A stretch of 64,000 bases of DNA from an uncultured Bacteroidota bacterium (GCA_902826215.1 CADEDY010000001.1:62001-126000); one strand, 5' to 3'; numbered from the stretch's first letter, positions 42,554-60,778 are shown. Notes: generated from the sequence alone by a model not told the origin. Numbers and translations: made by a program.

Positions 42554-43291
42554 ATGATGCGCACCCTGTTGGTGGACGATGACGATGCCACACGGCGTTA
42601 CCTGCGCGTGTTACTGAAAGAAGCCCGCGCTGACATAGAAGTGGTTGGCGAAGCGGCGAACATAAGAGAAGCGGAACGGGCGATCATGACCCACAAGCCG
42701 GACCTCGTGTTCCTGGGTGTGGAGATGCCCGGTGGAACAGGCTTCGATCTCCTGCGCAACTTGAAGCGATGGGATTTCGCAGTGATCTTCACCACTGGTC
42801 ACCAGCATTACGCCACACAGGCCATCCGGTTCAGTGCGCTGGACTTTGTGCCCAAACCCGTGCTGCCGGAAGAGCTCGCATCGGCCATGGAGCGGTTGCA
42901 CGAACAGCGGCCAACACCACCGGCGGCACAGGTGCAAGAGCAGTTCATCGCCAACATCACACAACCCGACGGCAGCAGGTTCAAGCTCACCATTCCGCAC
43001 GGTGAGCGCACCTTCTTCGTAGCACCCGCGGAGGTCGTTCGCTGCGAAGCGGAACGCAACTACACATGGGTGCATCTTGGCGAGGACAGGCGCTACCTGT
43101 TGTCGCGCACACTGAAGGAATTCGAGGAATTGCTGGAGCCCTTCGGCTTCGTGCGCCTCAACCGTGGCGATCTGGTACGCAAGCAGGAGATTGCGCACAT
43201 GGAAGGCGGCAACGCGGTATTGCGCACTGGTCACCGCATCGAAGTGAGTAGTCGCCGACTAGCCGAGCTGAAGCAGTTATTGGCTTCCTGA
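42554..43291 (+). CDS. LytTR-type response regulator lacking the phospho-acceptor Asp
   Basis: This encodes a 245-residue protein with an N-terminal receiver (MRTLLVDDDDATRRYLRVLL) and a C-terminal LytTR DNA-binding domain (FFVAPAEVVRCEAERNYTWV ... YLLSRTLKEFEELLEPFGFV). In the receiver the acidic triad and the Thr/Lys positions (FTTG; VPKP) are kept, but the phospho-acceptor site reads LVFLGVEMPGG: residue 55 is Gly (GGT at 42716-42718) where the family has Asp (GAT or GAC). One base change would explain this. It cannot be phosphorylated in the usual way and may be constitutive or inactive. It follows the decayed kinase by 22 bp and was presumably its partner. Confidence 0.85.
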   Translation: MMRTLLVDDDDATRRYLRVLLKEARADIEVVGEAANIREAERAIMTHKPDLVFLGVEMPGGTGFDLLRNLKRWDFAVIFTTGHQHYATQAIRFSALDFVPKPVLPEELASAMERLHEQRPTPPAAQVQEQFIANITQPDGSRFKLTIPHGERTFFVAPAEVVRCEAERNYTWVHLGEDRRYLLSRTLKEFEELLEPFGFVRLNRGDLVRKQEIAHMEGGNAVLRTGHRIEVSSRRLAELKQLLAS

Positions 43292-52658: not shown

Positions 52659-54467
52659 ATGCGATGGCTCTTCTTCCTGATCGCATGCTCAGCGACGTCA
52701 ACTGCGCATGCCCAATTGGACAGTCTGCTACGCGTGCTCAACACTCTGCCGGACGATACCTCGCGTCTACCTGTTCTGACCGGATTGCTGCGCGCCACGG
52801 TATTCAGCGATCCCGATAGTGGTCTTTTCTTCGCCGAACGATATCTGGCCGTGGCGAAGAGCAGCGATGTGGCCATGGAAATAGGCAAGGGCCACAACTA
52901 TACTGGGATGTGCTATTCGGCCAAAGGCGATCATGACCTCGCCTTGGAACATTACATGGCCGCGCTGTCGCATTTCGAGCATGGCGATGATCCGTGGTAC
53001 ACCGCCATGGCGCATAACAATGTCGGCAGTGTGATGGAGCACGAACTCAGGTTCTCAGAGGCCACACGTGAATTCCGGATCGCGTTGAAGGCCTTCGATC
53101 AACTGAACGATACGACATGGATATCCAATGTGAGCAACAACCTCGGGAATGTATACTTCAACCGAGGACAGAAGGATAGTGCGATGGTGTTCTACGAGTT
53201 GGCTGATCGCATGCTCGCGGAATTGGGTGATCGGGCATCGGCCTCGCAAGTGCGCATGAACCTTGCGGTGTGCTATTTGGATCTTGGTGACCCCCCAAGG
53301 GCCTTGTCCACCATTCGGTCAGCCGTGGAAGTGCATCCATTGGGTCAAGATGAATTGAACAGAGCGAACATCCTGATCAATTATGGTCGGGTATTGGATG
53401 CGAATGGCATGCACGACAGTGCTTTGGTGCAGCTTCGGGAGGGTGTGCGATTGGCGCAGGAGTATGGTGGCTTGGAGGTGGAGGGCAATGGAGAGGGTCT
53501 TCTGAGCGATCATTTCGAGGCCATCGGCAGATCGGATTCGGCCTTGGTGCATTACAAACGCATGGTAGCGGTGGATGATTCGTTGTTCACCGCAGAGCGA
53601 AGCGCCCAGATCTCCGAGGTACGCGAGAAGTACGAAAGCGGTAAGAAGGATGCACTACTTGCCGAGCGTGCCGCCGCCTTGGAGCAACGCGCGATCACGA
53701 TAAGGGCCGTTGTGGTGGGTGCGATCCTGTTGCTGTTGGCAGCCCTGTTCGCTTTCCGCGCGTACCGCGTGAAACGCAAGGGCGAGGCGGAGCTGGCTAG
53801 CAAGAACGCGATCATCGAGGGGCAGTTGAAGGAGAAGGAATTGCTGCTGCGCGAGATCCATCACCGCGTGAAGAACAACCTGCAAGTAGTAAGCAGCTTG
53901 TTGAGCATACAGGGTCGTGGCATCACCGACGAGAAGGCGCGGGGCGCCGTGCGCGATGGGCGCGACCGCGTGAAGAGCATGGCCCTCATCCACCAGGACC
54001 TTTACAAGGAGGACGACCTCACCGGCATCAGCATGCCCGGCTATGTGGAGAAGCTCGCACGCAGCCTCATGAGCAGTCATCAAATGCAGCCCGACCGCAT
54101 CGCACTGCACGTAGAGGTGCAGCCCATGACGTTGGATGTGGACACCGCCATACCGCTGGGTTTGATCCTGAACGAACTGATCACCAACGCGCTGAAGTAC
54201 GCGTGGCCCGAAGGAAGGAATGGAGTGCTTGCCGTGAACATGAAGGAGGTCCAGGATCCGAACGGTGACGGGGTCGTCCTGCAGTTGTACGTTCAGGACA
54301 ACGGCATCGGCTACGACCCCTCAGCACCCCGCAATGCCGAGGGTACTGGATTCGGGCTGAACATGATCAAGTCGTTCTCCTCGAAATTGGGTGCGGAGCA
54401 TAGCGTGATCCGCGATGGTGGTACATTGGCACGGCTCATCATCCGCAAGTACAAGAAGGTCCAATGA
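52659..54467 (+). CDS. TPR sensor histidine kinase (HisKA_2)
   Basis: This encodes a 602-residue protein. A signal peptide (cleaved near AHAQ) leads into about seven TPR repeats (residues 20-330, e.g. GKGHNYTGMCYSAKGDHDLA; AHNNVGSVMEHELRFSEATR), a coiled stretch, one TM helix (346-366) and the kinase core: HisKA_2 (LLLREIHHRVKNNLQVVSSL, with His401/402 in the H-box) and a HATPase (LILNELITNALKYAWPEG; DNGIGYDPSAPRNAEGTGF). The TPR domain lies in the periplasm and may sense a protein or peptide. It overlaps the LytTR response regulator by 4 nt (ATGA) and is the probable input of the adhesin cluster downstream. The start at 52659 lies 22 nt after the AKR gene. Confidence 0.92.
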   Translation: MRWLFFLIACSATSTAHAQLDSLLRVLNTLPDDTSRLPVLTGLLRATVFSDPDSGLFFAERYLAVAKSSDVAMEIGKGHNYTGMCYSAKGDHDLALEHYMAALSHFEHGDDPWYTAMAHNNVGSVMEHELRFSEATREFRIALKAFDQLNDTTWISNVSNNLGNVYFNRGQKDSAMVFYELADRMLAELGDRASASQVRMNLAVCYLDLGDPPRALSTIRSAVEVHPLGQDELNRANILINYGRVLDANGMHDSALVQLREGVRLAQEYGGLEVEGNGEGLLSDHFEAIGRSDSALVHYKRMVAVDDSLFTAERSAQISEVREKYESGKKDALLAERAAALEQRAITIRAVVVGAILLLLAALFAFRAYRVKRKGEAELASKNAIIEGQLKEKELLLREIHHRVKNNLQVVSSLLSIQGRGITDEKARGAVRDGRDRVKSMALIHQDLYKEDDLTGISMPGYVEKLARSLMSSHQMQPDRIALHVEVQPMTLDVDTAIPLGLILNELITNALKYAWPEGRNGVLAVNMKEVQDPNGDGVVLQLYVQDNGIGYDPSAPRNAEGTGFGLNMIKSFSSKLGAEHSVIRDGGTLARLIIRKYKKVQ

Positions 54468-55204
54468 ACGCCGTACACATCATCGTGGTGGAGGACGAAC
54501 CGCTGATCGCTGAGGATCTACGCGCACATTTGGAAGAGCTCGGTTACATCGTGTGCGCCGTGTGCGATAACGCCTTGGATGCGATGTCCGAGCTCATCGC
54601 CCACAAGCCCGACCTCTTGCTGCTGGACATCAACTTGGGCAATGGTGCTGATGGAGTGCAACTGGCGGCCTCCGTCAACGCGAAGCATCCCACCCCCTTC
54701 ATCTTCGTGACCAGCCACGCGGACAAGGCGACCCTGGATCGTGTCAAGGAAGTGCGACCAGCTGGCTTCATCATCAAACCCTTCGATGAGAATGACCTGC
54801 ACACGCAGATCGAAGTGGCCCTTGCACGCACCGCCGGAAAGCTGGACGTGACCACCCAACCCGAAACCGCACAACGCAGTGATTTCGTTATCGCCGACAG
54901 CATCTTCGTCCGCGACAAAGGCCGCTTGGTGAAGGTGCCCTTGGCGGAGATCCGCGTTGCTGAAGCGGACGACAATTATGTGACCTTGTTCACGCCTACG
55001 AAGAAGTATGTGATAACAAGCACGCTGGCTTCAGTGGAAGAAAAGCTGAATAGCCCACACCACATGCGCGTACACCGCAGCTACTTGGTGGACCTGCGGA
55101 AGGTCACGGCGGTGGAGGATGGTTGTGTGCGCATCGGTACCGAGATCATTCCTGTAGGTAAGACGTACAAGGAAGCTCTCATGGCGCGCATCCGTACGCT
55201 CTGA
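54464..55204 (+). CDS. LytTR-family response regulator
   Basis: This encodes a 246-residue protein. The receiver (NAVHIIVVEDEPLIAEDLRA) has phospho-acceptor Asp55 in LLLLDINLGNGADG, the switch Thr/Ser in FVTSHAD and Lys105 in IIKPFDEN. Residues 140-246 are a LytTR DNA-binding domain (DSIFVRDKGRLVKVPLAEIR, VAEADDNYVTLFTPTKKYVI, HHMRVHRSYLVDLRKVTAVE). Such regulators bind pairs of 9-bp direct repeats about two helical turns apart; a pair with that spacing lies 4 bp after its own stop codon and two more lie further right. It is the likely activator of the secreted-protein genes that follow. It is intact, unlike the related regulator at 42554. Confidence 0.94.
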   Translation: MNAVHIIVVEDEPLIAEDLRAHLEELGYIVCAVCDNALDAMSELIAHKPDLLLLDINLGNGADGVQLAASVNAKHPTPFIFVTSHADKATLDRVKEVRPAGFIIKPFDENDLHTQIEVALARTAGKLDVTTQPETAQRSDFVIADSIFVRDKGRLVKVPLAEIRVAEADDNYVTLFTPTKKYVITSTLASVEEKLNSPHHMRVHRSYLVDLRKVTAVEDGCVRIGTEIIPVGKTYKEALMARIRTL

Positions 55205-55207
55205 TCC

Positions 55208-55236
55208 GTTCACCCAACGTATTCGGTCGTTCACCC
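55208..55236 (+). promoter_or_regulatory. LytTR-type direct repeat site 1
   Basis: GTTCACCC at 55208-55215 and again at 55229-55236, start-to-start 21 bp. With its flank (TCCGTTCAC) the first copy resembles the LytTR half-site consensus [TA][AC][CA]GTTN[AG][TG], failing only at the last base. A box CAAGTTCG at 55269-55276, 40 bp after the second repeat, could be the -7 element of the operon starting at 55292. Confidence 0.65.
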
Positions 55237-55291
55237 GATCTTGGTGGCGCTGTACCGTGGATCCGGCGCAAGTTCGTGAACTCAATTGTCC

Positions 55292-56626
55292 ATGAAGATG
55301 CGTATGCGCCTCGCCCTCCTCATTGCAGCCATCAGCCTTTCTGCGATCGCTGCATTCGCCCAGCCCAGTGATGCCCAGATCCTCAAGGACATCGCCAGTC
55401 CGAAACAGCTGAAGGTGGAACTCTCCAAAAGCACCACCAAGAAAGTGTGGAGCGATGCCCATGCGCAGTGGTTCTGGGAGCGCGGCGCCACCATCTGGTT
55501 GCCCGCCGATGTCACCGAGTATCCGAACGCCAAGGTGGTTGTGTACGGGTTCGCGCGGTACCACACGGGCAACCCGCCCAGTTACCGCGAGTGGAAGACC
55601 AGCCTCAACGAGTACGAAGGAATACCCGCGCCCACCAAGGAGGAGATCCTCGCACACGCACGCAAGTACCTGAAGGATTTTGTAGGCGAATACAGGTACA
55701 ACCGGATGACCGATATCAAGAGCATCGATGTAGCGGCCGATCCCAAGACCGTATGGCACACACCGCTCTCCTTCAGCATGCAGTTCGAGGTGGTGGCCGA
55801 CGAGATCATCAGCGACATCGAAGTGGCCACGGTACTTACCCGACAAGAGACCCGCTTCTACCGTGACAAGGTCAGCGATCCATGGAAGTCGTTCATGGTA
55901 ACGGTGGAACGCGATACACGCCACGAGAACAAGCGCAGCTTCACCCCCGAGGATATCCGCGCGATGGAGACCATCGGCAGCCGCGAAGAGGAGGCACAAG
56001 CCCAAGCTGCATTGGCCGAGCTCGGAGAGATAACGATACCGGATTTCGCCCGCGATGTGGACGTGTTCATGCACACGCACAAGCTGCTGCGCGAAGGCAC
56101 CGCAGCACAATTCGAAGCGTATCTTATCCGCATGTTGGCGCCGGTCTACTTCGTTGAGGGCAGCACCACCCGCCTCACACCCCAAGGTGCCGACCTCGTG
56201 AACAAGGCGGTGAACAACGCCTTCAAAGGGAAGAGCACATACGCGCAGCAGTACTGCCCGGATCCCGGGGTGAAGCATCAGCAAGCCGACATGATGGAGT
56301 GGTGGAACGCCACGCAGGATGCGCATGTTCGAATGGCGTTGACCAAGGCCGGTGGCGGGTGGAAGAACGGTCAGAAGACCGGTGAGACATACAAGATCAA
56401 CGCGTTGGAGGTGTGGATGCTTTCCAGCGCTGATGACATCGCGCGGATCAATAGCTATGAGCCGGGCATGCTGTGCAAGACCCCTTCGGGCGCTTCGCAA
56501 GCGGTGCAGAAGGCGACCGCTGGAAGTGGAACATCTGGCGGCACGAGCACTGGGTCAACTAGCGGGAATGCCAACGATATCTTGAAGAAAGGAAAAGGAC
56601 TCCTCGACAAAATGACCAAGCCATGA
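55292..56626 (+). CDS. exported protein of unknown function, first gene of the LytTR-controlled operon
   Basis: This encodes a 444-residue protein with a signal peptide (MKMRMRLALLIAAISLSAIA, cleaved near AFAQ). I do not recognise the family. Visible features are a globular first half with aromatic-rich segments (DAHAQWFWERGATIWLPADV; VVVYGFARYHTGNPPSY), a central Glu/Ala-rich helix (GSREEEAQAQAALAELGEIT), a region with TYAQQYCPDPGVKHQQADM and a low-complexity Gly/Ser/Thr linker near residue 410 before a basic amphipathic C-terminus (NDILKKGKGLLDKMTKP). There is no T9SS tail or lipobox. It overlaps the next gene, a T9SS adhesin, by 4 nt (ATGA), so it may be its periplasmic or surface partner. 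The ATG at 55292 is preferred over a TTG two codons upstream. Confidence 0.8.
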   Translation: MKMRMRLALLIAAISLSAIAAFAQPSDAQILKDIASPKQLKVELSKSTTKKVWSDAHAQWFWERGATIWLPADVTEYPNAKVVVYGFARYHTGNPPSYREWKTSLNEYEGIPAPTKEEILAHARKYLKDFVGEYRYNRMTDIKSIDVAADPKTVWHTPLSFSMQFEVVADEIISDIEVATVLTRQETRFYRDKVSDPWKSFMVTVERDTRHENKRSFTPEDIRAMETIGSREEEAQAQAALAELGEITIPDFARDVDVFMHTHKLLREGTAAQFEAYLIRMLAPVYFVEGSTTRLTPQGADLVNKAVNNAFKGKSTYAQQYCPDPGVKHQQADMMEWWNATQDAHVRMALTKAGGGWKNGQKTGETYKINALEVWMLSSADDIARINSYEPGMLCKTPSGASQAVQKATAGSGTSGGTSTGSTSGNANDILKKGKGLLDKMTKP

Positions 56627-58464
56627 AACACTTCTACGCACTCCTGTTGGCATTCGCGTTCGCCGGGCTGGCTCAGGCACAGCTGAGCGGCACCTACACC
56701 GTGGGCGGTGCCTCACCGGATTATACCACCATCACCGCTGCGGTGAACGCGCTGAACACACAGGGCGCCTCGGGCAATGTCATCTTCGATATCCGTCCCG
56801 GCACCTACACCGGTCAGTACAGCTTGGGCGAGATCAGCGGCGCGCCGGGTTCCATCCAGTTCCGCAACAGCAGCAACGGAGCCCAGTTGGTGAACCTGGA
56901 GTACGACGCCAGCGGATCTTCGGACAACTACATTTTCAAGTTGGATGGCACCGATGACGTGCGCTTCGAGAAGCTCACCTTCCTTCCGTTGGACTTCAAT
57001 TATGCCCGCGCGATCCACTTCTTCAACTCCATCGAGGGTTTGATCATCGAGCAATGTGTGTTCCGCGGAAGCACCAATCCGTCGGGCTCGGCCTATTTCG
57101 ATCGTATCCTGGTCCACTGCGATCAGTCCAGCCTCAATACCAACAACAACCCACAGGATGTGCTGATCCTCGACAACTCCTTCTTCGATGGCAACACGGC
57201 CATCGACATCGACGCCTACGGGTTCAGTGGTGCGCGTAGCGCCGGACTGATCATCAGCGGCAACGAGTTCCGGCAACAGATCGGCACGGGTGTCAAGTTG
57301 AATAATTGCATCGGCAGCATCGGCGACAACGACTTCAGCACCACCGTGGGCAATTGGTATGTGGCGATCCGTACCACCTACTTCGATGGTGGCAGCCAGA
57401 TCCGGCGCAACGACATACGCGCATACGCTACGAATGGCTGTACGGGTATCGAGGTGGGCAATACGCAGAGCACCACCGGCAACATGATCAGCAACAACAT
57501 GGTGTACGTGAACGGCACCGGCGATGTGTGGGGCATGGCCGTGTACAACCTATGGGACATGAAAATCGTGCACAATAGCGTGCTGGTGGCGAACGGGCTG
57601 CCTGAGCAGTCCTTCGCCTTCTACCACCTCAGTGAATTCGCCGACGGCGAGGATGCCTTGGTCCGCAACAACCTCTTCGCCAACAACACCGGTGGCCTGG
57701 CCTACAAGGCCAACCGCCAGCAGAACATCGCCTTCGAGGACCACAACGGCCTCTTCACCACGGGTCCAGTGCTTTCCATGGTAGGGCCCAATGCCTACGA
57801 TGAACTGGCCGATCACCAAGCAGGAACAGGTCAGGGACTTGGCGATAGCGACATCGATCCGGTCTTCCCCGAGCAACCCGACCTGCACATGAACAACTGT
57901 GAGCTCGACAACCTCGGTGAATACTACTTCGTGGTCGCGGCCGATATCGACAGCGAAGCACGGGGTAACCCCGCTTGCGACATGGGGGCCGATGAGTTCG
58001 ACCCGGAGTCGGTCGTGGCAACACCACCGGTGATCATCGATCAAAGTCAACTGCCGTACGAACTAGGATTAGCGGCCACCTACACCACCTACCAATGGAA
58101 CACCGGCGCCACTACGCCCACCATCACCATCACCGCCGGCGGGCCCTACAGCTGTCTGGTGATGGACGTGAACCTATGCATGTACAATGTCAACGTGAAC
58201 GTGATCGTGGAGATCACCACGGACATTGCAACGCATGAGGCGAGCACATGGCAAGTGCTTCCCAACCCCGCAACGGACCACATTCGCATCAACGGGCTAG
58301 CGGATGTGACCCCATACACGATCCACGATGCTGGTGGGCGAATTGTGCACCAAGGCGTGCTGAACGAGGGCGCGCCGATCGCGGTGGATGCGCTGCCAGC
58401 CGGCCTGTACACGGTGCGTACCACGGACGAGAACTACCGTGCGCTCCGTTTCGTGAAGCAGTGA
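56623..58464 (+). CDS. T9SS-sorted right-handed beta-helix surface protein
   Basis: This encodes a 613-residue protein. The signal peptide (cleaved near LAQAQ) leads into LSGTYTVGGASPDYTTITAA, then VIFDIRPGTYTGQYSLGEIS, the start of a parallel beta-helix. Coils continue with regular N/G-rich turns (LILDNSFFDGNTAIDIDAYG; GLIISGNEFRQQIGTGVKLN). The C-terminal 80 residues are a type A T9SS domain (TWQVLPNPATDHIRINGLAD ... LPAGLYTVRTTDENYRALRF), which directs export across the outer membrane and attachment to the surface. It is translationally coupled to the upstream unknown gene and followed after 24 nt by a stand-alone LytTR gene. It probably acts as an adhesin or polysaccharide-binding protein. 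Confidence 0.88.
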   Translation: MKHFYALLLAFAFAGLAQAQLSGTYTVGGASPDYTTITAAVNALNTQGASGNVIFDIRPGTYTGQYSLGEISGAPGSIQFRNSSNGAQLVNLEYDASGSSDNYIFKLDGTDDVRFEKLTFLPLDFNYARAIHFFNSIEGLIIEQCVFRGSTNPSGSAYFDRILVHCDQSSLNTNNNPQDVLILDNSFFDGNTAIDIDAYGFSGARSAGLIISGNEFRQQIGTGVKLNNCIGSIGDNDFSTTVGNWYVAIRTTYFDGGSQIRRNDIRAYATNGCTGIEVGNTQSTTGNMISNNMVYVNGTGDVWGMAVYNLWDMKIVHNSVLVANGLPEQSFAFYHLSEFADGEDALVRNNLFANNTGGLAYKANRQQNIAFEDHNGLFTTGPVLSMVGPNAYDELADHQAGTGQGLGDSDIDPVFPEQPDLHMNNCELDNLGEYYFVVAADIDSEARGNPACDMGADEFDPESVVATPPVIIDQSQLPYELGLAATYTTYQWNTGATTPTITITAGGPYSCLVMDVNLCMYNVNVNVIVEITTDIATHEASTWQVLPNPATDHIRINGLADVTPYTIHDAGGRIVHQGVLNEGAPIAVDALPAGLYTVRTTDENYRALRFVKQ

Positions 58465-58488
58465 CGGGTCCCGTAACCCAACCGACGG

Positions 58489-58806
58489 ATGGTCACGAAT
58501 TCGGTCTACCTCAAGGATGGCGCGCAGTGGGTGCGCGTGCCCGTGCAGGACATCCTGTACATGGAGGCCGATGACAACGCTACACATGTGTACAGCACGC
58601 TGCGCGCCTACACCGTAGGCCGCATGTTGAAGGACGTGCTGGATGAGATGGCCAGCGAGCGCCTGGAACGGGTACACCGCTCGTACGCGGTGAACCTGGA
58701 CCGCGTGCAGGCCATCAGCGATAACGGCCTGCACGTGGGCGATCGCTGGTTGCCCATCGGACGCAGCTATCGACCGGCGGTATTGCAGCGCTTGCGCATG
58801 ATCTGA
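58489..58806 (+). CDS. stand-alone LytTR DNA-binding protein
   Basis: This encodes a 105-residue protein that is entirely a LytTR domain: VYLKDGAQWVRVPVQDILYM, EADDNATHVYSTLRAYTVGR, LERVHRSYAVNLDRVQAISD, and RWLPIGRSYRPAVLQRL at the end. Each block aligns with the LytTR part of the response regulator at 54464 (EADDNYVTLFTPTKKYVITS, HMRVHRSYLVDLRKVTAVED, EIIPVGKTYKEALMARI). There is no receiver or membrane part. It is the third gene of the operon driven by LytTR site 1 and can provide feedback or a second activator for sites 2 and 3. A hairpin follows 30 nt after its stop. Confidence 0.9.
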   Translation: MVTNSVYLKDGAQWVRVPVQDILYMEADDNATHVYSTLRAYTVGRMLKDVLDEMASERLERVHRSYAVNLDRVQAISDNGLHVGDRWLPIGRSYRPAVLQRLRMI

Positions 58807-58823
58807 AAAGGTAACCAAGGGTC

Positions 58824-58885
58824 TCTCCCGATCGCCGAACGCCTCGGACCTTCCCGCAAGGTTCCGGGGCGTTCACCCATGGATA
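58824..58885 (+). repeat. intergenic repeat copy 1 (hairpin plus operator)
   Basis: This is a segment of about 62 bp (TCTCCCGA, then a hairpin with GAACGCC...GGCGTTC ends, then ACCCATGGATA) that recurs at 60646-60705 before the next adhesin gene. The hairpin and the first half of the LytTR site are both inside it. Confidence 0.7.
58837..58874 (+). terminator. hairpin after the LytTR gene, overlapping LytTR site 2
   Basis: GAACGCCTCGG-ACCTT pairs with AAGGTTCCGGGGCGTTC around CCCGC, one bulge and one wobble, about 16 bp. No T-run follows, so termination is only likely. Its last four bases (GTTC, 58871-58874) are the first half of the direct repeat. Confidence 0.5.
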
Positions 58886-58899
58886 GGTCCCCTTCACCC
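58871..58899 (+). promoter_or_regulatory. LytTR-type direct repeat site 2
   Basis: GTTCACCC at 58871-58878 and CTTCACCC at 58892-58899, start-to-start 21 bp as at sites 1 and 3. A -7-like box CACGTTTG is at 58931-58938, 39 bp after the second repeat starts, 23 nt before the ATG at 58962. Confidence 0.68.
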
Positions 58900-58961
58900 G
58901 ATAATCGACCATAGCGATGGAGGAATAGCGCACGTTTGTGGCGTTCCAATAACCGATCTCC

Positions 58962-60635
58962 ATGAAACTCTCCTTTATCTCGATCTTATTCGCAAGTCTG
59001 TTCGCTCCCACGTTGATGCAGGCACAGGTAAGCGGCATCTTCCACATTGGCGGCGCGGGCGACTCGTATGCAACGATACAGGACGCGGTCGACGACCTTG
59101 CTCAGGTCGGTGTATCCGGTCCAGTGGACCTGGTAGTGGCTCCTGGGGTCTACACGGGAGGTCTCGCTTTGGACCCGATCCCCGGTGCAGGTGCGAGTGC
59201 GCCTATCCTGATCAGGCCGTTGAACCCAGGCGCGTACGACGTGCACATTTCCGGCGAACCTGAGCTCTTCCGCGGCGTGGTCGATATCCGCGTACCGTTC
59301 GTTTCTCTCCACGAGATATCGATCGACGTTTACCCGGATCCATTGAGCCCCGTACCTATCGCCACGAGCTGCGTGCAGGTTGACGCGGACGATGTGGTGG
59401 TCAGCTCTTGCACGATCACCAACAACACCGCGACTACGCATGGTGTTAGCGTTGATGGGGAAAGAAGCGTGCTGCTGGATAATGTCATTGTGAATGAATA
59501 TGCGGACAGCACCCATGGGTCCACGGGACTTCACGTCTATGGAGTGGAACGGGTCACCGTTGACGGCAACAACTTCTCCGGCTGGGTATCCGGCATGTAC
59601 TTATCGTCCATCGGACAATGCGATGTGGTGGACAATGGGATCCTGCTGGCCAAGACCGCATTGAATGAGGATCTGAGCCGCGGGATCACTCTCGCGCTCA
59701 GTGAGAACGCCAACATCCTCCGGAACAGGATCGTCATGTACGAGGCTGGGGCCGGCATATGGATCGGTGGATACTCGGACGAGGGAATAACGAGACGCAT
59801 CGAGAACAACATGGTCAGCAACATCAAGTACAGCGCTGTAGGATATGCGACAACGGGGATCGACGTGCACCTCTACACAACTCCTGCCGTGGATCTGACA
59901 ACACCGGCCGAAAGCGAATTGTACATCCGGCACAATAGCATCTATGTGGAAGGTGACAGCGCGAGCGGCATTTTTACGGACTATCCTCTCGCCCAAGAAA
60001 CCGTGATCACATCCAATTCCGTACGTATGGTCGGCAACGGATGTGTCGGATTGAACTACGCGGGCAACACCTCGGCGCCCTGGCCTACGAGCGACTACAA
60101 CAACGTGAGTTTCTCCGGTGTGGGCAACTGGTACGGGATCTACCAGACCAAGGTGCTTATCCGGACGAATACCACCATGGAAGACCATTCGATCGGTGCT
60201 GTGCCACATTATGTCAGCAAGACCAACTTGCACATCAAGGAAACCTCTCCGAACATCAACACGGCCTTCTTTGATGCGGAAATCACCAATGACTACGACA
60301 AGGATCCACGTCCGGGGCTGGGGCAACACGATATCGGAGCCGACGAATACGGTAACCTCGGCTTGAAGTCATTGGTGGTGGCCCCGCCCGTGCTTCCCGC
60401 GGCCACCGTCGAGATCGGTGCTTATCCGAACCCGGCTCAGGATCAGGTGGTGTTCGAGCTGCCGGATGATGAAGTCCAGCCCTTCGTGCTGCATGGCGCG
60501 GACGGCCGCGTGGTGCTGAGCGGTATGAGCGTTACCGGCCAGGCCGTCCGCTTGGATGGTCTCGCCCCGGGCACTTACATCGCACGGTTCCCGCAATGGC
60601 CAAGTAAAACAACGCGTCTCGTGGTCGCGCACTGA
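58962..60635 (+). CDS. T9SS-sorted beta-helix surface protein
   Basis: This encodes a 557-residue protein. A signal peptide (cleaved near LMQAQ) is followed by VSGIFHIGGAGDSYATIQDA and VDLVVAPGVYTGGLALDPIP, the same opening as its neighbours, then beta-helix coils (VVSSCTITNNTATTHGVSVD; VTVDGNNFSGWVSGMYLSSI; NANILRNRIVMYEAGAGIWI). The end has DIGADEYGNLG and a type A T9SS domain (EIGAYPNPAQDQVVFELPDD ... LAPGTYIARFPQW). It is a single-gene transcription unit behind LytTR site 2 and is followed by a hairpin. It is probably an adhesin or glycan-binding protein on the cell surface. Confidence 0.86.
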   Translation: MKLSFISILFASLFAPTLMQAQVSGIFHIGGAGDSYATIQDAVDDLAQVGVSGPVDLVVAPGVYTGGLALDPIPGAGASAPILIRPLNPGAYDVHISGEPELFRGVVDIRVPFVSLHEISIDVYPDPLSPVPIATSCVQVDADDVVVSSCTITNNTATTHGVSVDGERSVLLDNVIVNEYADSTHGSTGLHVYGVERVTVDGNNFSGWVSGMYLSSIGQCDVVDNGILLAKTALNEDLSRGITLALSENANILRNRIVMYEAGAGIWIGGYSDEGITRRIENNMVSNIKYSAVGYATTGIDVHLYTTPAVDLTTPAESELYIRHNSIYVEGDSASGIFTDYPLAQETVITSNSVRMVGNGCVGLNYAGNTSAPWPTSDYNNVSFSGVGNWYGIYQTKVLIRTNTTMEDHSIGAVPHYVSKTNLHIKETSPNINTAFFDAEITNDYDKDPRPGLGQHDIGADEYGNLGLKSLVVAPPVLPAATVEIGAYPNPAQDQVVFELPDDEVQPFVLHGADGRVVLSGMSVTGQAVRLDGLAPGTYIARFPQWPSKTTRLVVAH

Positions 60636-60645
60636 TCGAACGGTT

Positions 60646-60705
60646 TCTCCCGACCAACGAACGCCCCGGCGCCTTTCCAGGTTCCGGGGCGTTCACCCAT
60701 GGATA
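60646..60705 (+). repeat. intergenic repeat copy 2 (hairpin plus operator)
   Basis: This is a second copy of the 58824-58885 element, with TCTCCCGA, GAACGCCCCGG and GTTCCGGGGCGTTC then ACCCATGGATA all kept, while the middle of the hairpin differs. Confidence 0.7.
60659..60694 (+). terminator. hairpin after the 58962-60635 gene, overlapping LytTR site 3
   Basis: GAACGCCCCGG (60659-60669) pairs perfectly with CCGGGGCGTTC (60684-60694), with a further imperfect inner stem. No T-run follows. The GTTC end is shared with the operator. Confidence 0.5.
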
Positions 60706-60719
60706 CCGTTCGTTCACCC
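60691..60719 (+). promoter_or_regulatory. LytTR-type direct repeat site 3
   Basis: GTTCACCC at 60691-60698 and at 60712-60719, 21 bp start-to-start. The -7-like box GGAATTTG is at 60750-60757, 38 bp after the second repeat starts, and the ATG at 60779 follows 21 nt later. Confidence 0.68.
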
Positions 60720-60778
60720 ATTTCCGCTGGACAGGTGGGGATGTGTGCGGGAATTTGCGGGCTCAAGGTCCACCCGTC

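Follow-up and report, generated by a model that had tools for sequence, protein, structure and literature searches.

Published binding sites of LytTR proteins consist of two 9–11 nt repeats with 11–13 nt between them (PMC4847170). The operons of LytTR regulatory systems (LRS) have 9-bp repeats with a 12-bp spacer ~10 bp upstream of the −35 element, and two LRS-like operons of Bacteroides have 11-bp repeats separated by 11 bp and followed, after another 11 bp, by a −33 element, with 19 bp between this element and TATCTTTG (PMC6193735); the proximal repeats of AgrA are found near −60 (PMC4227749), and FimR of Porphyromonas gingivalis binds the mfa1 promoter directly (PMC1974823). Little is known about how individual surface proteins of the type IX secretion system (T9SS) are switched on. 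Here we describe three pairs of direct repeats (operators 1–3) in 64,000 nucleotides of an uncultured Bacteroidota bacterium (GCA_902826215.1, contig C1:62001–126000; ‘the window’), located in front of genes for secreted proteins (P1–P4) and next to the genes for a sensor kinase (HK) and a LytTR response regulator (RR). We consider it highly probable that this is a local two-component regulon, in which RR acts at the three operators and switches on P1, P2 and a receiver-less LytTR protein (LT) from the first, P3 from the second and P4 from the third. The local LytTR regulon is a known mechanism in a composition that we did not find described: the open-access literature yielded neither a description of this system nor an experimentally defined LytTR operator from the Bacteroidota.

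The repeat pairs are confined to one locus

The original prediction, made from the window alone, had reported three repeat pairs, each 21 bp start to start, and all three are where it placed them (55208/55229 and 60691/60712 without mismatch; 58871/58892 with one mismatch, in the second copy, CTTCACCC). Their occurrence is far beyond chance: allowing at most three mismatches, the window contains five repeat pairs vs 0.64 expected from shuffled windows, and the best three are operators 1–3. A scan of the complete genome (4,157,469 bases in 51 contigs), which had been suggested as a check, found that the pairs are not random through the genome: exact TTCACCC-N14-TTCACCC occurs three times in 4.16 Mb, always within this 5.5 kb and in the orientation of the genes that follow. 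The same pattern reversed, used as a control, occurs nowhere in the whole genome, and the four pairs with one mismatch elsewhere in the genome are all inside open frames of 409–657 aa. Using a weight matrix built from the operators of eight other species, that is, with the source genome left out, operators 1–3 score 40.4, 37.7 and 27.5 bits, and the next position in the window scores 0.4. From the shuffle expectation, the genome counts and the matrix scores, a chance origin of the repeats is rejected. A 71-position sequence model trained on all 21 operator-promoters described below was run over 45 genomes to find further members of the regulon; nothing scored between the training sites (at least 33 bits) and the background (at most 22 bits), and because the model was trained on these sites only the absence of other matches is informative.

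Conservation of the operators in the genus

The genus comparison included 45 genomes (44 congeneric and the source), all searched; these are assemblies, mostly metagenome-assembled genomes (MAGs), and because related species are not independent the counts of operators and genomes are not probabilities (genomes and loci are cited by our own G and L numbers). Orthologs of RR are encoded by nine of the 45, including the source (69–77% identical in seven congeneric species, with a 75% fragment in an eighth, G032), and each of the nine carries promoter-type operators at this locus. As the original prediction had expected of related genomes, the repeats are conserved: the nine species have 21 operators (17 perfect, four with one mismatch). 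Only one 1-bp indel is needed to align them as C-GTTCACCC-R-N11-C-GTTCACCC, after which GATC usually follows. In comparisons across species, identity is 95–100% in the repeats and 35–37% in the 12-bp spacer; downstream, it is 38–45% at positions 34–60 and 53–68% at positions 61–68. Because the P1 proteins behind the operators are as little as 35% identical, we conclude that the repeats are held by selection and not by recent ancestry.

The same alignment bears on whether the repeats are simply copies of a duplicated repeat or terminator element. GGTTCCGGGGCGTTCACCCATGGATA is common to sites 2 and 3, together with a hairpin that overlaps the first half-site, and a similar inverted repeat is located upstream of G040_s3 and G032_s3; however, such a hairpin is present at only four of the 21 sites (by eye), no T-tract terminator was found, and conservation is restricted to the half-sites and promoter-proximal positions and does not extend to the spacer, as would not be seen in a copied element. 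We therefore regard this explanation as highly improbable.

The gene order (kinase, RR, operator 1, P1, P2, LT, operator 2, beta-helix gene) is largely kept. In eight of the nine genomes no more than ~15 bp separate the RR stop codon from operator 1; in G041 an inserted gene stands between them. Operator 2 starts 1–2 bp past the LT stop codon in G005, G007, G009 and G027. In the genomes without an RR ortholog, the exact pairs examined either fall within open frames or are without the operator anatomy, except in G024, which encodes an RR paralog (57% identical) and a P1 ortholog. The co-occurrence of RR and operators in nine of nine genomes supports the original proposal that RR, encoded at 54464, regulates the three transcription units. 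Eight other LytTR proteins are encoded by the source genome, so one of these, or some other regulator, might bind the repeats while the neighboring RR acts elsewhere; given this co-occurrence, the restriction of the operators to this locus and the situation in the RR-less genomes, we judge this to be very unlikely.

Position of the operators relative to the promoters

At this locus the 9-bp repeats are 12 bp apart, with 8 bp from the second repeat to a TGG and a further 19–20 bp to a −7-like box. The spacing and promoter position had been described as LytTR-like, and they fit published sites (PMC4847170, PMC6193735): CGTTCACCC-N12-CGTTCACCC agrees with 9–11 nt repeats separated by 11–13 nt, and the repeats are just upstream of a putative −33/−35 element, as judged from the conserved positions of TGG (+38–40 in the alignment, 8 bp past repeat 2) and TTyG (+65–68). 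TAnnTTTG-like boxes had been reported 40, 39 and 38 bp after the second repeat; they are found at these distances, counted start to start, with one or two mismatches to TAnnTTTG. The TTyG core is fixed in place in the 21 promoters, with a 1-bp shift at source sites 1 and 3, and the promoter-proximal TT is invariant; site 2 is without the TGG. For annotated starts that carry a signal peptide, the distance from repeat 2 to the ATG is 55–63 bp.

If the rule for Flavobacterium applies, in which the G of TTTG is at −5 (PMC6847099), the repeats would span about −72 to −65 and −52 to −44 with their center near −58, close to the position of the AgrA repeats. The boxes appear weak, as would be expected of activator-dependent promoters, and a scan for E. 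coli-type promoters gave nothing above shuffles. Several sites of class 1 (operator 1 and its counterparts) have GTTC at +42, but as a regular third half-site this was rejected, being degenerate.

Genes of the locus

The features of the locus are collected in Table 1. The signal peptides were judged by eye, and both the signal peptide and the membrane span of HK were read from its sequence. HK matches HisKA_2 (E 1.7e-26), TPR_12 (9e-21) and HATPase_c (1.9e-8), and its N-terminal half resembles FimS of P. gingivalis (E 1.3e-15, far under the cut-off of that model). RR matches Response_reg (2.5e-22) and LytTR (5.7e-17), both above cut-off; LT consists of a LytTR domain only. A phmmer search for solved LytTR structures, as a basis for comparing DNA-contact residues, gave no match for this domain. 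Another LytTR protein is encoded ~11 kb upstream of the system (C1:105007-105282; window 42554-43291).

Table 1. Features of the locus, in window coordinates.
Feature	Position	Strand	Remarks
Sensor kinase HK	52659..54467	+	Signal peptide, TPR repeats, one likely membrane span, HisKA_2 and HATPase_c (Pfam)
LytTR response regulator RR	54464..55204	+	4-bp overlap with kinase stop codon
Operator 1, C-GTTCACCC-N12-C-GTTCACCC	55207..55236	+	3 bp past RR stop codon; ortholog in all nine species
−33-like TGGC, promoter 1	55245-55248	+	Putative function
−7-like box CAAGTTCG, promoter 1	55269..55276	+	Position kept in 21 promoters; putative function
P1, secreted protein, 444 aa	55292..56626	+	Predicted; behind operator 1
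P2, secreted protein with T9SS sorting domain, 613 aa	56623..58464	+	TIGR04183 32.7 bits
LT, receiver-less LytTR protein, 105 aa	58489..58806	+	24 bp past P2; LytTR 1.6e-13
Hairpin, 3′ arm ending in GTTC of operator 2	58837..58874	+	Fold z −3.2
Operator 2, C-GTTCACCC-N12-C-CTTCACCC	58870..58899	+	
−7-like box CACGTTTG, promoter 2	58931..58938	+	Position kept in alignment
P3, secreted beta-helix protein with T9SS sorting domain, 557 aa	58962..60635	+	Beta_helix 5.1e-8; TIGR04183 29.4 bits
Hairpin, 3′ arm ending in GTTC of operator 3	60659..60694	+	Fold z −4.8
Operator 3, C-GTTCACCC-N12-C-GTTCACCC	60690..60719	+	
−33-like TGGA, promoter 3	60728-60731	+	
−7-like box GGAATTTG, promoter 3	60750..60757	+	Position kept in alignment
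P4, secreted beta-helix protein, 1673 aa	60779..64000	+	Extends past window end; Beta_helix 3.6e-13

The open frames for secreted proteins start at 55292, 58962 and 60779, as had been noted, the first and third being downstream ATGs within slightly longer open frames. With the NCBIfam cut-off of 23 bits for TIGR04183, the signal peptide is accompanied by a C-terminal T9SS type A sorting domain in three of the four secreted proteins, P2, P3 and P4 (23.7 bits for full-length P4, from L059); P1 has no such domain; Pfam beta-helix matches are found in two, P3 and P4. The earlier description of these proteins as adhesins thus holds for secretion, for the sorting domain in three of four and for the beta-helix in two, and the adhesin label itself is a guess. 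The regulon is narrow, with at most four of at least 150 proteins with T9SS tails in the genome.

P1 and P2 overlap by 4 bp and the gap between P2 and LT is 24 bp, which leaves no room for another promoter block; P1, P2 and LT are therefore probably one operon. LT (58489) would then be inside the operon of operator 1 rather than outside, which corrects the original prediction; operator 1 precedes the three-gene run, so LT is itself a predicted target, a point that had gone unremarked.

Proposed mechanism and the roles of RR and LT

What has been observed is that the operators exist, are restricted to this locus, are conserved and co-occur with RR; because the operators are nearly letter-perfect in related species and adjacent to the sensor system, the sensor very probably turns on these surface proteins together. 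From its domains and the gene overlap, the envelope TPR-HisKA_2 kinase would phosphorylate the co-encoded RR. Two RR molecules would then occupy the direct repeats CGTTCACCC (9 bp each), which are spaced by one helical-turn pair (21 bp), in front of the three promoters, as predicted from geometry and conservation. With repeat 2 located ~44–52 bp upstream of the predicted start, RR would recruit RNA polymerase to weak −33/−7 elements and switch on P1-P2-LT, P3 and P4, that is, secreted proteins of which three have T9SS sorting domains. LT, produced from the first operon, would probably have an accessory regulatory role, with feedback on these same operators, and would not be needed in every species.

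Several points weigh against this mechanism. Operator binding and activation by RR are predictions from sequence; any of the ten LytTR proteins encoded by the genome might in principle be the one that binds; the −33 and −7 boxes resemble TTTG and TAnnTTTG only poorly; the promoter part of site 1, taken alone, is unremarkable (rank 2587 of 127,860 positions); and G013 and G014, with RR paralogs that are 49–56% identical, have no clear repeat pair.

A two-step cascade, in which RR triggers only the first operon and LT acts as chief activator at operators 2 and 3 (and 1), is possible, if rather unlikely. The LT gene is directly upstream of operator 2, and LT orthologs (57–70% identical in seven species; LT is present in eight of the nine species, counting the source) follow P2 in every case in which one contig holds both; also, the promoter classes differ slightly, with GATC following repeat 2 in nine of nine class-1 sites and less often in classes 2 and 3. 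However, the operator cores are alike in front of both promoter classes, LT is distant from the LytTR domain of RR (~30% identity, with a separate clade in a tree), and in G039 LT is lost (no open frame, no match), yet operator 2 (with one mismatch) and its promoter are kept. Thus, the suggestion that LT is a co-activator gains from its wide retention and loses from G039, and RR is the better candidate activator, because G039 keeps operator 2 without LT, RR and operators co-occur, and all sites have the same core. LT may bind the same repeats; that LT and phospho-RR share or compete for half-sites, so that a product of the first operon sets the gain or memory for the surface genes, seems to us unlikely; on this reading, a two-component system carrying its own receiver-less co-regulator would have been reused in the genus with exchanged kinases and cargo.

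In G032, G040 and G041 a second TPR kinase (HK2; L121:11767-13677, L128:6672-8633 and L131:3648-5618) is encoded in the interval from LT to operator 2, and in G040 and G032 it follows LT immediately. The HK in the window is closer to HK2 (56–57%) than to the RR-linked kinases of G040, G009, G007 and G005 (48–50%), which hints at kinase exchange.

Paralogous cassettes and matches outside the genus

Paralogs of RR (44–59% identical) are encoded by other cassettes in the genus. Related pairs (one or two mismatches, 21 bp) are present in G024, G029 and G041, each in front of the gene for a secreted protein of 720–740 aa that by eye resembles an SBBP-type repeat protein; the genes for a TPR kinase and the RR paralog come next, and four of the five have the boxes TAGGTTGC or TACGTTCG. 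In such cassettes (L127:1311-6157, L128:12572-17375, L134:2776-12459, L132:8349-13075) the regulator is within its own predicted regulon, and some cassettes are in tandem. In G028 the pairs are located before the RR paralog and before a beta-helix gene. The paralogous pairs (G024, G028, G029, G041) are 58–63 bp from the ATG where the start is clear. These related pairs indicate that the GTTCACCC operator is shared by a clade of regulators and not confined to one locus. Upstream of the G028 RR paralog (L133:6203-6273) there are about four degenerate copies of the half-site GTTCACC, spaced at 21-bp intervals, suggesting autoregulation.

Among 379 other genomes sampled from the class, six exact matches occur in five genomes. 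Five loci were read: two are in repetitive coding sequence and two are without LytTR or any other relative of the system; the sixth match (G401:C221) is outside these loci. At the fifth locus read, in a genome of another family of the class, an open frame encoding a LytTR domain ends 78 bp before the exact operator (L198:1501-1529). The exact pairs at L199:1501-1529 and L201:935-963 are in coding tandem repeats with a 21-bp unit, a source of false positives for pattern scans.

The P1 family

P1 belongs to an unnamed secreted family, without a Pfam or NCBIfam match. It is kept behind operator 1 in all nine species and, in G024, behind a diverged operator. Its AlphaFold model is of good quality (pLDDT 82.5) but has no PDB match with E below 0.08 in Foldseek, and assignment of a function by fold was rejected because the VIA-align Z is at most 6.0 (NTF2/cystatin-like pieces), that is, background. 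By the A1 scan, relatives outside this genus are limited to two Calditrichota MAGs (L150:6523-7731, L151:8252-9469), where there is no LytTR system. Both adjoin a gene for a secreted protein whose beginning looks like a beta-helix or copper-type NosD-like repeat protein (by eye), which suggests that P1 works together with beta-helix proteins such as P2.

Comparison with known systems

The locus supplies an exactly defined operator, 21 natural variants of the promoter, a species that has naturally lost the co-regulator (G039) and a family of paralogous regulator–operator pairs, so that operator specificity and the role of LT are directly testable. FimS/FimR of P. gingivalis is likewise a Bacteroidota two-component system that activates surface structures, and FimS is similar to the N-terminal TPR half of HK; unlike the system described here, it has no tandem GTTCACCC operators. 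FimR is not known as a LytTR protein.

AgrA of the S. aureus agr system shares the LytTR response regulator, direct repeats centered near −60 and activation of weak promoters (PMC4227749); it differs in peptide quorum sensing, half-site and targets. YpdA/YpdB-yhjX and BtsS/BtsR-yjiY of E. coli share a kinase with a LytTR response regulator and a very small regulon, and YpdB also has two direct repeats 21 bp start to start (10 nt plus an 11-nt spacer; oligonucleotide table, PMC4847170). However, their kinases are LytS-type membrane proteins, their targets are transporters, their half-site is different, and they include neither a receiver-less LytTR protein nor secreted surface proteins.

The LRS (HdrRM, BrsRM and the Bacteroides LRS-like operons; PMC6193735) share a receiver-less LytTR gene, 9-bp direct repeats with a 12-bp spacer just upstream of the promoter, and predicted feedback; at this locus the corresponding elements are LT, with 105 aa, and operator 1 upstream of its own predicted operon (P1-P2-LT). 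In LRS the regulator is paired with a membrane inhibitor, whereas the neighbors of LT are P2, P3 or a TPR kinase (G032, G040, G041), with no co-transcribed membrane inhibitor, so we do not file LT as an LRS. Here, the receiver-less protein is instead encoded behind secreted proteins (in three species also next to HK2), and a complete two-component system lies upstream.

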